Source of the DNA: a virus
Length of the DNA: 45,560 bases
Direction: 5' to 3' (one strand)
IMG/VR virus record: IMGVR_UViG_3300008107_000096
Coordinates: 1 to 45,560 of that record
Within the stretch, counting starts at the first letter, position 1. Every line of letters begins with the position of its first letter. Position numbers and translations under genes: made by a program. The notes under the pieces are model-generated. The model ran no database searches, was not told the origin of the DNA, and saw only the letters and a program-made list of their open reading frames with translations. Shown in pieces: positions 15,404 to 45,519 of this stretch.

Positions 15404-16405
15404 TTATTTGATCTGTGCCCAAACACGCTCACGGATCTGCTTTGTTAGTGTGTCCGGCAACGGTACATAATCCAAGTCTACTGCATCCTTCTTGCCGTTC
15501 TTGAATGCCCAGTCAAAGAACTTCAACACTTCGTTGCTAGTGGCTTTGCTCTTTGGTTCTTTGTACATGATGATAAAACTTGCAGAACTTACTGGCCAAG
15601 CATTGGGATTCTTTTGATCCACGATGCTCAAGCCCATTCCTGGAACACTGAACCAATCAGCACCATCTGCCGCGGCAGCAAATGTTACGTCATCTGGGCT
15701 TACATACTTGCCACTCTTGTTTTGTAGTTGTAAGAATACCATATTGTTTTTCTTAACATAAGCATACTCCACATACCCAATTGAGCCTTTGATACGGTTC
15801 ACATTTGCCGCAACACCTTCGTTACCCTTACCGCCTACAGAACTAGCGGCAGGCCATTTAACTGCCGCACCACGACCCACTTTGCTCAACCACTCTGGGC
15901 TAACAGTTGCAAGATAATCTGTCCAGTTAAAAGTTGTGCCCGATCCATCAGCACGATGTACAACGGTGATTTCTAAGTTAGGCAATGCCTTACCTGGATT
16001 CAATGCTACTAACTTAGGATCATTCCATTTAGCAATAGTACCCATGAACACTTCAGCCATTACAGGTCCAGTAATCTTTAATTCGCCCGGTTTAAAACCA
16101 TCCAAGTTGATAACAGGAACTGTTCCACCAATGATAGCCGGGAACTGCACTTGTCCATTCTTGTCTAAATTCTCACCTGACACAGGTGCGTCTGTGGCAC
16201 CAAAGTCAACTGTCTTTGCGTTGATTTGTCTAATGCCTCCACTACTACCAATGCTCTGATAGTTTAAGCTAACTCCTGTGGCTTTCTTATATCCTTCGGC
16301 CCATTTAGCATAGATCGGAAATGGGAATGTTGCACCCGCTCCTGTAATGTCTGCGTTTGCCGATACGGTGACTGCGGCTAATAAAATTGCTAGTAGTTTG
16401 TTCAC
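15404..16405 (-). CDS. pstS: Phosphate ABC transporter substrate-binding protein PstS
   Basis: A 333-residue periplasmic phosphate-binding protein. The signal peptide MNKLLAILLAAVTVSANA is followed directly by ADITGAGATFPFPIY, the PstS hallmark. Phosphate-binding blocks GSSGGIRQI, FGATDAPVS and HRADGSGTTFNWTDYL are all present, and the length is typical. Starts at GTG after AAGGAG. No pstC, pstA or pstB is nearby, so it would work with the host permease, as in cyanophages. A Pho box lies upstream. Confidence 0.97.
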   Translation of the reverse strand: MNKLLAILLAAVTVSANADITGAGATFPFPIYAKWAEGYKKATGVSLNYQSIGSSGGIRQINAKTVDFGATDAPVSGENLDKNGQVQFPAIIGGTVPVINLDGFKPGELKITGPVMAEVFMGTIAKWNDPKLVALNPGKALPNLEITVVHRADGSGTTFNWTDYLATVSPEWLSKVGRGAAVKWPAASSVGGKGNEGVAANVNRIKGSIGYVEYAYVKKNNMVFLQLQNKSGKYVSPDDVTFAAAADGADWFSVPGMGLSIVDQKNPNAWPVSSASFIIMYKEPKSKATSNEVLKFFDWAFKNGKKDAVDLDYVPLPDTLTKQIRERVWAQIK

Positions 16406-16613: not shown

Positions 16614-16997
16614 ATGATTAAAATTTTGTCAGTATTATCTTTGGCTGCACTAACAGCCTGCGGGGGCGGCAATGAACCAGAATTGCCAAAAGTTGTAGAG
16701 ATACCTACACCAGTTGAATTACCCTCACCATTTGTAATCGGACCGAGTGGCACTGTTTCAGTTCCGACTATTCCCGTAGTTGGTCCCGGTGAGATGGCTA
16801 AACTTCCGTTTGTAATTGGACCTGTCAAAGGCCCAGAAGTTACAATAATTCCAAATGTTGTAATAGGACCTAGTACTGTAGTTCAACCTACAATTAATTA
16901 TTGTACAGATGGATTTGTAGTTGGGCCATGTGCGCCATTGCCTTCTACTTGCAAACCCGATGCTGGTGGTTTTGTAACAGGTCCTTGTACTCCATAA
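16614..16997 (+). CDS. Lipoprotein with VIGP repeats
   Basis: A 127-residue plus-strand protein. The signal peptide ends with lipobox LTAC (C16), followed by a Gly linker. The mature part is Pro/Val-rich with repeats of FVIGP, VVGP, VVIGP and FVVGP about every 15-20 residues, and four Cys in the last third (NYCTDGFVVGPC, STCKPDAGG, GPCTP) that may form disulfides. No known family. It is likely an extended surface or periplasmic lipoprotein. Expression seems controlled by its leader. Confidence 0.8.
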   Translation: MIKILSVLSLAALTACGGGNEPELPKVVEIPTPVELPSPFVIGPSGTVSVPTIPVVGPGEMAKLPFVIGPVKGPEVTIIPNVVIGPSTVVQPTINYCTDGFVVGPCAPLPSTCKPDAGGFVTGPCTP

Positions 16998-17023
16998 AAA
17001 TAGGCTCCTAGGAGCCTATTTTT
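16996..17023. terminator. Bidirectional terminator shared by lipoprotein and tmRNA genes
   Basis: A perfect 28-base palindrome: AAAAATAGGCTCCT and its reverse complement. It gives a GC-rich hairpin with T5 in both directions. It contains the last bases of the lipoprotein stop codon. Confidence 0.92.
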
Positions 17024-17025
17024 GA

Positions 17026-17384
17026 GTTTCTGTTACGAGGTATGTCTTACCCTAGGTAGCCTTTATCAAGCTGCCAATGCGAACTGTGAGTCGTTTGCGT
17101 TTACTTTGTTTTGCTTCTTCGACCGGAAAATCCTACTGTCAAGACTAGCTTGCTTCAGATCATGCCTCCAATCCTAACGGCTTCTACATTGCCGGACTGT
17201 CCATTTCATTACTCTTGACCCAATCGATCCTGTGTCAGGCCCATTATAAAACATACTGGATTGGTGTCACTCGATATTACACTACCTTCTTAGACACAGA
17301 TAGTAACCAATATGCTTTATGGTGGACCTGGCGGGCACTGCCCCCGCGTCTTGAATCCTTTTCAATCTACTTCATACAGTCTTA
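17026..17384 (-). ncRNA. ssrA: Circularly permuted (two-piece) tmRNA
   Basis: Acceptor piece first (~17384-17320): T arm GCGGG/CCCGC, 3' acceptor strand CAGGTCC and encoded ACCA ending at 17320. Then a 77-base spacer, whose ATAAAGCATA/TATGTTTTAT ends pair. Then the coding piece from 17242: GGGCCTG pairs fully with CAGGTCC, with the third pair G-U, the alanine identity element. Then GGATCGATTGGG (tmRNA D-region), a GGC...GCC pseudoknot region and the tag frame. TTGGGTC (17223-17217) pairs with GATTCAA (17357-17351) and ACAGTC (17200-17195) with GACTGT (17381-17376), joining the two pieces. Consensus promoter upstream, terminator downstream. It rescues stalled ribosomes together with SmpB. Permuted tmRNAs are known in alphaproteobacteria, some cyanobacteria and some betaproteobacteria. 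Confidence 0.95.
17063..17098 (-). other. tmRNA proteolysis tag frame (ANDSQFALAA, two stops)
   Basis: Resume codon GCA at 17098-17096, then AAC GAC TCA CAG TTC GCA TTG GCA GCT, TGA, TAA: tag ANDSQFALAA. The upstream TAAAC keeps the -5 U, -4 A and -1 C seen before the resume codon in E. coli (TAGTC). The LAA end is the ClpX recognition signal. Confidence 0.93.
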
Positions 17385-17390
17385 ACTTAC

Positions 17391-17419
17391 ATTATATATT
17401 TATTTTTGGGCACTGTCAA
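17391..17419 (-). promoter_or_regulatory. Consensus sigma-70 promoter of the tmRNA gene
   Basis: TTGACA (17414-17419), 17-base spacer, TATAAT (17391-17396): exact consensus in both boxes. Predicted start near 17384, at the 5' end of the acceptor piece. Confidence 0.93.
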
Positions 17420-43854: not shown

Positions 43855-44372
43855 TAAAGATGTCCTGTTATTTGTAGTGTATATCGAGGCGCTAATCCAA
43901 GATTTGCTGCCATGTGTGGTGTGTCATAAATCCATTCAACAGTGTCGCCGGCACTCCAGTTTACTATAGGGTTGTTATCTACTTCAAGGTAGTGGCCTGA
44001 TTGCCAATCTTCTAGTAGCACCAATGCACGAGAAATGGTATGCTCCTTGCCTTTGAGGTCAAACAGTTCAATATATTTGATATATAGATCACGATGGTTG
44101 GGCATTACTGTGCCTGTGTGCATTCGATAAAATGCCAGCCCAATATCTTTCCAGCCCCTGTCTGTGTATATATCAACAAAACTATCAGCCCAGCTGGGCA
44201 ACTTATGCCGCATGTCACACAAATCGCCAGTTATTTTACTTTGGTATCCTTGACTGACCCATTGATTGACGCTCACAGGATCGTTGAATGGCTCGTTTAT
44301 ATATTTGAGACGTGTGTATTCATCGTCCCAGAATTTATTAATCTTGGAGAGGCTGAAGTCTTGTATTGCCAT
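43854..44372 (-). CDS. 2OG-Fe(II) oxygenase/cupin-like protein
   Basis: A 172-residue protein. MHTGTVMPNHRDLYIKYIEL carries the H-x-D pair, HYLEVDNNPIVNWSAGDTVEW the central strands, and PHMAANLGLAPRYTLQITGH the distal His and Arg. Probably a double-stranded beta-helix hydroxylase. It overlaps the nucleotide-sugar dehydrogenase gene by 35 bases. Confidence 0.75.
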   Translation of the reverse strand: MAIQDFSLSKINKFWDDEYTRLKYINEPFNDPVSVNQWVSQGYQSKITGDLCDMRHKLPSWADSFVDIYTDRGWKDIGLAFYRMHTGTVMPNHRDLYIKYIELFDLKGKEHTISRALVLLEDWQSGHYLEVDNNPIVNWSAGDTVEWIYDTPHMAANLGLAPRYTLQITGHL

Positions 44373-45519
44373 AGTGTATTACCTTTATTCTTGTATCGTC
44401 TGATGTAAATTGTCTCCAAGGATCTACCACAATGCTTCCGGGAGCCAATTCAACATATAATTCTTGTGGCTTCTGCTCTCCAGAATAACCATAGGTAACT
44501 GTTCTGTTGTGTGCTAAAAATGCTATACACTCTGCAGGTCCAGCAACAACATCATTTGTCATTGGATCTACATAAATGTAGGTTGCACCCATGTCGGTCA
44601 AATAACTGCCAATCAAAAGACTGTACGATCCATCGCAAAAATCAACATCGGGTTTGTATGCTTTTCCAAGTATGTAGATTGGCAGTTCTGTGACGTCCTG
44701 AATATTTTTAAGATACTTGGCAATGTTCCTGGCTTGTATTTCTCTAGCACTCATTATGGCATCGAACAAGTCATAGCCCAATCCTAGCCGTTCAGCCAAA
44801 AACCTCAATGCTATATTGTCCCTGGGATGACAAGGTCCTGCATCTCCCATTCCGGCCTTCATGTACTTTGGACTCATGATGCGTATGGTTGAACTGGCTA
44901 GTGCATCGGTCACTACATCGACATTGATATTGCCATTTATCATTGCTACATCTTGTATCATGTTAACCAGACCAATCTTGGCACTGATAAATGTATTATA
45001 GAAAATTTTAATAGATTCGGCTTCAGTTAATAATTTTGCATCGCCGGTCTCACTTCCATCCTCTGTTCCAATAATAACCATTTCTGGATTTACCATATCC
45101 CATTCTACACTACCCATGGCAATAAGATAAGGATTGTAAATAAATCTTGCACCAGAAATATGTTGTCTAAGTTCATTACGTACTGTGCCGGGTAACACAG
45201 TGCTAATCAATACCACCAATTGATTTTCAGTAGCATGATGATTAATACTGCCAAGAGTACTTTTAACAATTTCATAGTTAAAATCTTTGTTAGGCAAATG
45301 AGTTATAGGCTGACTGCCATCGTATATGGGATCGTGTGGAGTTTGTACAGCAACAAAAATAATGTCTTTGCCTTCAACTGCATCTTTAACCGAAGTGGCT
45401 ATTTTAATTTTGTTACTTTGGCGTGGATAAATATCATATCCTGTAACATCATATTTTTCGCCCATTACTTCTGCACAGGACAATCCCAATTTACCCAATC
45501 CAATAAACCCAACTTTCAT
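44338..45519 (-). CDS. UDP-glucose/GDP-mannose dehydrogenase family protein
   Basis: A 393-residue NAD-dependent enzyme. N-terminal Rossmann VGFIGLGKLGLSCAEVMG, LVVLISTVLPGTVRNEL, the catalytic-Cys loop GDAGPCHPRDNIALRF and a C-terminal domain with PIYILGKAYKPDVD and GSYSLLIGSYL. It oxidises a UDP- or GDP-sugar to the uronic acid. It has GGAG before ATG. With the phosphomannomutase it suggests sugar-nucleotide supply for surface glycans. Confidence 0.9.
   Translation of the reverse strand: MKVGFIGLGKLGLSCAEVMGEKYDVTGYDIYPRQSNKIKIATSVKDAVEGKDIIFVAVQTPHDPIYDGSQPITHLPNKDFNYEIVKSTLGSINHHATENQLVVLISTVLPGTVRNELRQHISGARFIYNPYLIAMGSVEWDMVNPEMVIIGTEDGSETGDAKLLTEAESIKIFYNTFISAKIGLVNMIQDVAMINGNINVDVVTDALASSTIRIMSPKYMKAGMGDAGPCHPRDNIALRFLAERLGLGYDLFDAIMSAREIQARNIAKYLKNIQDVTELPIYILGKAYKPDVDFCDGSYSLLIGSYLTDMGATYIYVDPMTNDVVAGPAECIAFLAHNRTVTYGYSGEQKPQELYVELAPGSIVVDPWRQFTSDDTRIKVIHYGNTRLQPLQD

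Follow-up and report, generated by a model that had tools for sequence, protein, structure and literature searches.

A permuted tmRNA gene on a phage contig and a virus lineage whose tmRNA spacers appear to serve as slots for small protein genes

Results

The DNA analyzed here (the window, 45,560 bases) is the IMG/VR virus record IMGVR_UViG_3300008107_000096, and it carries a circularly permuted tmRNA gene on its minus strand (17388-17026). Using cmscan, the Rfam model RF04321 (tmRNA_permuted) matched the minus strand from 17381 to 17066 with 96.7 bits (cut-off 47, E 1e-17), and the match spanned the full model (1-213 of 213) in the order acceptor piece, spacer, coding piece. PHROGs matches on the contig include a head maturation protease, a virion structural protein, a DNA ligase, a nuclease and a PstS-like protein, and the neighboring genes (11.8-16.5 kb) are 77-85% identical to viral contigs bearing the same kind of tmRNA. 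The original prediction had assigned a permuted tmRNA gene to a phage-like genome and had proposed a search with the Rfam permuted-tmRNA models; the RF04321 match above cut-off confirms the gene, and the phage genes and the IMG/VR origin of the record support its setting on a phage rather than a bacterial chromosome. The window also contains genes for a PstS-like phosphate-binding protein (15404-16405) and a UDP-glucose dehydrogenase (44338-45519), as well as a tRNA-Arg(TCT) reported by ARAGORN (1094-1170).

Upstream of the gene is a sigma-70-type promoter (TTGACA-17-TATAAT, 17391..17419, minus strand), predicted solely from its 12/12 match to the consensus. The acceptor piece (17320..17388, minus strand), delimited by RF04321 and by stem covariation and with its 5′ end estimated from the promoter, holds the 5′ strands of the inter-piece helices, the T-arm with the loop GGCAGUG (17347-17331, minus strand), the 3′ acceptor strand CAGGUCC, an A, and a CCA ending at 17320. 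It is followed by a 77-nt intervening segment, or spacer (17243..17319, minus strand), which by analogy with known permuted tmRNAs would be removed from the mature RNA and which has a terminal helix (17319-17307 paired with 17259-17247, minus strand). The coding piece (17026..17242, minus strand), recognized by RF04321, RF01850 and acceptor pairing and with an estimated 3′ end, contains the 5′ acceptor strand GGGCCUG, the D-loop-like segment ACAGGAUCGA, the tag region and a downstream part. The acceptor stem has 7 bp, including a G3-U70 pair, plus CCA. The tag frame (GCA AAC GAC TCA CAG TTC GCA TTG GCA GCT TGA TAA, 17063..17098, minus strand) has a resume codon and reads ANDSQFALAA before the double stop TGA TAA. 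A bidirectional terminator-like hairpin of 13 pairs with a T-run lies at about 16995..17024. The anatomy first proposed for this gene, namely a consensus promoter, a CCA at 17320, a paired spacer from 17319 to 17243, a coding piece from 17242, the tag with its double stop and a bidirectional terminator, was recovered in full. A second promoter-like match (GTGACA-16-TATAAT, 11/12) occupies the end of the spacer (17270-17243), directly before the coding piece, and probably arises only because the UUUAUAAU border is conserved.

The G-U third pair and the inter-piece helices, previously paired by hand, were upheld by comparison with 81 distinct homologous genes, in which 99.3% of cells at the predicted pairs were paired. 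The acceptor stem, the T-stem and the 6-pair inter-piece helix all covary with compensatory changes across these genes, and the G3-U70 pair was kept in 81 of 81 relatives. The P2 helix (GACUGU/ACAGUC) is present in the window and in many relatives, and the T-stem varies in sequence across relatives around a constant loop.

RF01850 (beta_tmRNA) matched 17433-16995 of the minus strand marginally in cmscan (84.2 bits against a cut-off of 84) and was the clan's top match in the window, ahead of RF01849 (alpha_tmRNA), and ARAGORN (linear) did not report the gene. The T-loop, GGCAGUG, is not the canonical TTCRANT; together with ACAGGAUCGA it conforms to the RF01849 combination of a GGCRGUR loop with AGGAUCGA, and the canonical T-loop with a beta D-loop-like segment that characterizes RF01850 is not found in the window gene. 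A GGCRGUR loop was combined with ACAGGATCGA in 125 of the relatives collected, and two collected genes with a UUCGACU loop carry a different D-loop-like segment. Degeneration as the source of the odd T-loop was rejected, since the loop is of the RF01849 consensus type and the T-stems covary around it while it stays constant. The tag ANDSQFALAA is of the type established for betaproteobacteria, in keeping with the RF01850 match. Judged by its sequence, then, the gene joins an alphaproteobacterial-type T-loop to a betaproteobacterial-type tag.

Spacers of this kind have a common layout, with one helix strand directly after the CCA and the complementary strand directly before U(A/G)AU and the coding piece. 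The terminal helix covaries and averaged 12.6 pairs over 79 distinct spacers, compared with 5.5 pairs when spacer halves were re-paired (maximum 6.7 in 1000), and the window spacer has 15 pairs in the same count. The window spacer has no ORF, its longest frame near the start being 6 codons, and by its predicted pairing it is the structured, gene-free form of a slot that is filled in some relatives. In spacers with a nested gene, the helix had 11.2 pairs against 9.5 re-paired (maximum 10.3), a small contrast because the 5′ strands are nearly alike. ARAGORN found no tRNAs inside 85 distinct spacers.

Nested genes were scored as ORFs covering at least 75% of a spacer, for spacers of at least 120 nt and with dinucleotide shuffles as the null. 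Such an ORF was present in 24 of 26 distinct spacers of this length (shuffles: mean 0.9, maximum 4 in 200), and spacers shorter than 120 nt showed no ORF excess (12 of 52, with 10 expected). A scan with the T-arm only yielded, among the matches listed, 64 distinct spacers, 20 of them at least 120 nt long and about 17 with such an ORF, and we therefore estimate that a nested gene is present in about a quarter of the lineage's spacers. In homologous pairs of nested ORFs, changes accumulated at the third codon position (changes at positions one, two and three were 10, 7, 33 for L022/L036; 17, 2, 23 for L127/L023; 18, 15, 29 for L118/L147; 6, 1, 13 for L064/L044; and 3, 2, 11 for L055/L126), with the closest pair, L058/L074 (4, 2, 1), having too few changes and showing no such excess. 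The nested-gene sample consisted of viral loci.

Searching for a CCA with AAGGA and then ATG behind it gave at least 120 contigs, the Shine-Dalgarno sequence of the nested gene coming just after the CCA. The spacer pattern and a downstream coding piece occurred together at 136 loci. At 84 of these, exactly one nucleotide separates the stop codon from the coding piece, and at 78 an ORF of at least 30 residues ended at or near the coding piece; at least 32 unrelated families were represented. The 3′ helix strand encodes the last codons and the stop. Where the stop lies at one base (41 distinct spacers), the nested frame ends with SL in 30 cases and with FL in 6. The nested families include thioredoxin (PF00085, 75 bits) and DUF2061 (PF09834, 73 bits), and the others are small, often membrane-like proteins. 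At three loci (L313:423-866, L338 and L268) a thioredoxin with a WCGPCK motif is encoded exactly between the CCA and the coding piece; the thioredoxin gene of L345 ends some nucleotides earlier. Of 55 loci with relatives of the DUF2061 gene, 53 have them away from any tmRNA gene, and it therefore appears to be an ordinary gene caught in the slot. A 123-aa ORF, in contrast, was next to parts of a tmRNA at 14 of the 16 loci where it occurs.

The tmRNAs with nested genes look intact at the level of their predicted parts. Independent Rfam tmRNA matches span the nested genes. A tag frame could be read in 42 of 54 nested relatives, and further tag frames were apparent by eye in several others. Six nested-gene tmRNAs (L083, L245, L249, L252, L253 and L275) have, by eye, apparent very long tags of ∼23-31 residues, such as AKASTSGSFKFSGKGVKLASARREAVLA in L083. 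The idea that acceptor pieces directly followed by an ORF belong to solo or split tmRNA genes was rejected for almost all, as the coding piece comes after the ORF; L088 and L097, which have an additional acceptor piece, are genuine exceptions.

A 17-base T-arm scan of viral contigs identified at least 119 contigs, nearly all with acceptor pieces of the window kind. In contrast, a 29-base stretch of the acceptor piece had no match among 84,980 bacterial and archaeal species genomes. A 21-base T-arm query of the bacterial and archaeal collection gave four matches, of which one is an unrelated sequence and three are tmRNA-like genes of patescibacteria; the latter are Saccharibacteria/Nomurabacteria genes (L122, L123 and L124) with the T-arm GCGGGGGCAGUGCCCGC, whose loop is otherwise seen in the alphaproteobacterial permuted type. 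By blastn, no phage isolate carried a close relative of the window gene beyond a 32-nt T-arm match. The 123-aa nested ORF sits in tmRNA genes of three T-loop types (GGCAGUG, UGCGAAU and UUCGACU), which also differ in their D-loop-like segments. Because the 29-mer is absent from bacteria and archaea while the T-arm is abundant in viral contigs, recent capture from a host is unlikely as far as the searched genomes can tell, and the window gene is best read as a mosaic within a virus lineage rather than a recent host copy. Two phage loci (L088 and L097) each have two acceptor pieces, with a complete gene of canonical T-loop and an extra acceptor piece of GGCAGUG type, and the acceptor strand of the extra piece in L097 is broken.

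A gene for SmpB, which was also to be sought elsewhere in the genome, was not found: PF01668 had no match in the window record (possibly incomplete), and the same held for 16 related records, which reach 524 kb in length, so that none of these was seen to encode SmpB along with the tmRNA as a complete phage trans-translation system would. For this reason, the phage tmRNA likely works with host SmpB. Of the two origins first entertained, trans-translation by the phage for itself or a gene taken from its host, the former is thus retained in the form of probable use with host SmpB, and the latter is disfavored, at least as a recent event, by the absence of the 29-mer from 84,980 species.

Discussion

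We consider it highly probable that the window holds a working-looking permuted phage tmRNA gene whose product would undergo spacer excision and depend on host SmpB, in a lineage that uses the spacer as a gene slot. Counted against this reading are the failure of ARAGORN to report the gene, the marginal beta_tmRNA score, a T-loop that is non-canonical (but of a conserved alphaproteobacterial type), and the occurrence of nested genes only in relatives. We infer that a single precursor would be transcribed from the gene's own promoter and that the coding piece would pair in trans with the 3′ strand of the tRNA-like domain. By analogy with known permuted tmRNAs, host enzymes would excise the 77-nt spacer, with RNase P cutting at 17243/17242 and 3′ processing at 17320/17319, and the terminal helix of the spacer may draw both cut sites together. 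The resulting two-piece RNA would be charged with alanine through G3-U70, bind host SmpB, rescue stalled ribosomes and append the degradation tag ANDSQFALAA.

In other members of the lineage, a small protein gene in the slot would reuse the processing helix for its start and stop signals. The 5′ helix strand would act as the Shine-Dalgarno sequence, and the 3′ strand would supply the last codons (typically ...SL or FL) and the stop, followed by UGAU and the coding piece. When formed, the helix would hide the Shine-Dalgarno sequence of the nested gene, which would favor translation on the nascent precursor; alternatively, the nested gene might be translated from released spacer RNA ending one base after the stop. 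On balance we lean toward the idea of a compound gene, in which the slot swaps small protein genes, the maturation helix doubles as a control element, and translation competes with tmRNA maturation.

Several other explanations can be weighed against the same observations. The phage RNA might act mainly as a decoy or competitor of the host tmRNA, rather than in full trans-translation, in the manner of the tmRNA of mycobacteriophage DS6A, which has no CDS (quoted in PMC11915505), and the phage records without SmpB are compatible with this. However, the tag frame, resume region and double stop of the window gene are intact, tag frames are readable in 42 of 54 nested relatives and in more by eye, and G3-U70 is invariant, so we regard such a role as unlikely. 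It is still less probable that the ORFs in the spacers of relatives are chance frames or insertions that kill the tmRNA. Short spacers do lack an ORF excess (12 of 52 below 120 nt, 10 expected), but 24 of the 26 long spacers hold an ORF where 0.9 would be expected, and this, the codon-position signature, the known domains (thioredoxin and DUF2061), the intact tags and acceptor stems, and the retention of one 123-aa ORF in tmRNA genes of three T-loop types all speak against that explanation.

tmRNA genes are common integration sites, and a captured host gene could persist as a neutral passenger or attachment-site remnant that the phage does not use; the orphan acceptor piece of L097, with its disrupted acceptor strand, and the two acceptor pieces of L088 could be viewed as such remnants. 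We nevertheless give little credence to this explanation for the window gene, which has its own consensus promoter and terminator, helices that covary over 81 genes and a virus-specific acceptor piece with no counterpart in the 84,980 bacterial and archaeal species searched, and whose kind is present in contigs of 4 to 524 kb. Finally, genes for a PstS-like protein and UDP-glucose dehydrogenase would not be out of place on a piece of bacterial chromosome, where the tmRNA gene would be an ordinary bacterial ssrA. That origin is largely refuted by the head maturation protease, virion structural protein and phage DNA ligase families, and the IMG/VR source and the neighboring genes with 77-85% identity to other viral contigs leave it with almost no probability.

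A highly probable phage tmRNA used with host SmpB, with a gene slot in its lineage, has several implications. Alpha- and beta-type tRNA-like domains appear to have been exchanged between phage tmRNAs of this lineage, and the T-loop and D-loop parts switch jointly despite lying on separate RNA pieces. Circular permutation frees room within the gene of a structural RNA, and viruses appear to fill it with protein genes; the nested genes thus suggest what the permuted form may concretely be used for, and they tie RNA processing to translation in a way that can be tested. There is also a warning for annotation, as nested genes and the tmRNA genes that host them are easily missed: ARAGORN misses the window gene, and the spacer of phage Melnitz has no marked CDS.

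A permuted phage tmRNA was initially thought to be a novelty, but it belongs to a kind already known: a two-piece tmRNA was described in phage Melnitz, and 53 two-piece structures were counted among 18,146 phage genomes (PMC9004378, 2022), and the tmRNA database paper of 2025 lists 79 phage sequences (PMC11915505). RF04321 likewise located permuted tmRNAs in Melnitz, HTVC008M and Mesorhizobium, Pelagibacter, Roseobacter/Ruegeria, Rhodobacter and Erythrobacter phages. In two Ruegeria phages, the permuted tmRNA is immediately preceded by GOLLD RNA (RF02032; L239:114-547 and L244:107-540). For protein genes in the spacer of a permuted or two-piece tmRNA, we found no report in the literature searched, which left out most subscription papers, so that an earlier one is possible.

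With RF01849, whose consensus has the T-loop GGCgGUA and the D-loop-like segment AUAGGAUCGA, the window gene shares its T-loop type, but it differs in its tag, in its acceptor stem (CAGGUCC/GGGCCUG) and in having its best clan match elsewhere (RF01850). With RF01850 it shares the tag type ANDxxFALAA, the terminator region and a marginal model match, whereas the consensus of that model has UUCGAUU and CUGGUUUCGAC in place of GGCAGUG and ACAGGAUCGA. A close parallel in kind is Methylophilales phage Melnitz (MZ577097 46013-46345), which also bears a permuted tmRNA with an alphaproteobacterial-type T-loop (GGCAGUA) and has no SmpB found in its record. Melnitz differs in being of alpha_tmRNA type overall, with the tag ANDNYVPVDYALAA and the acceptor stem GGGGGCG, compared with the beta-type tag and marginal RF01850 match of the window, and in having a glutamine riboswitch after the tmRNA. 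Its 142-nt spacer (L162) contains an unannotated open frame of 58 codons with a Shine-Dalgarno-like GGAG that runs into the coding piece. The spacer inserts described for permuted tmRNA genes are one tRNA-Ala and one repetitive element (PMC11915505), with no protein-coding gene described there, whereas relatives of the window gene have nested proteins from at least 32 families. tmRNA genes with group I introns that carry homing endonuclease genes (PMC11915505) also have a protein gene inside a tmRNA gene, but there it lies in a self-splicing T-loop intron, whereas in the relatives described here it occupies a processing spacer rather than an intron.
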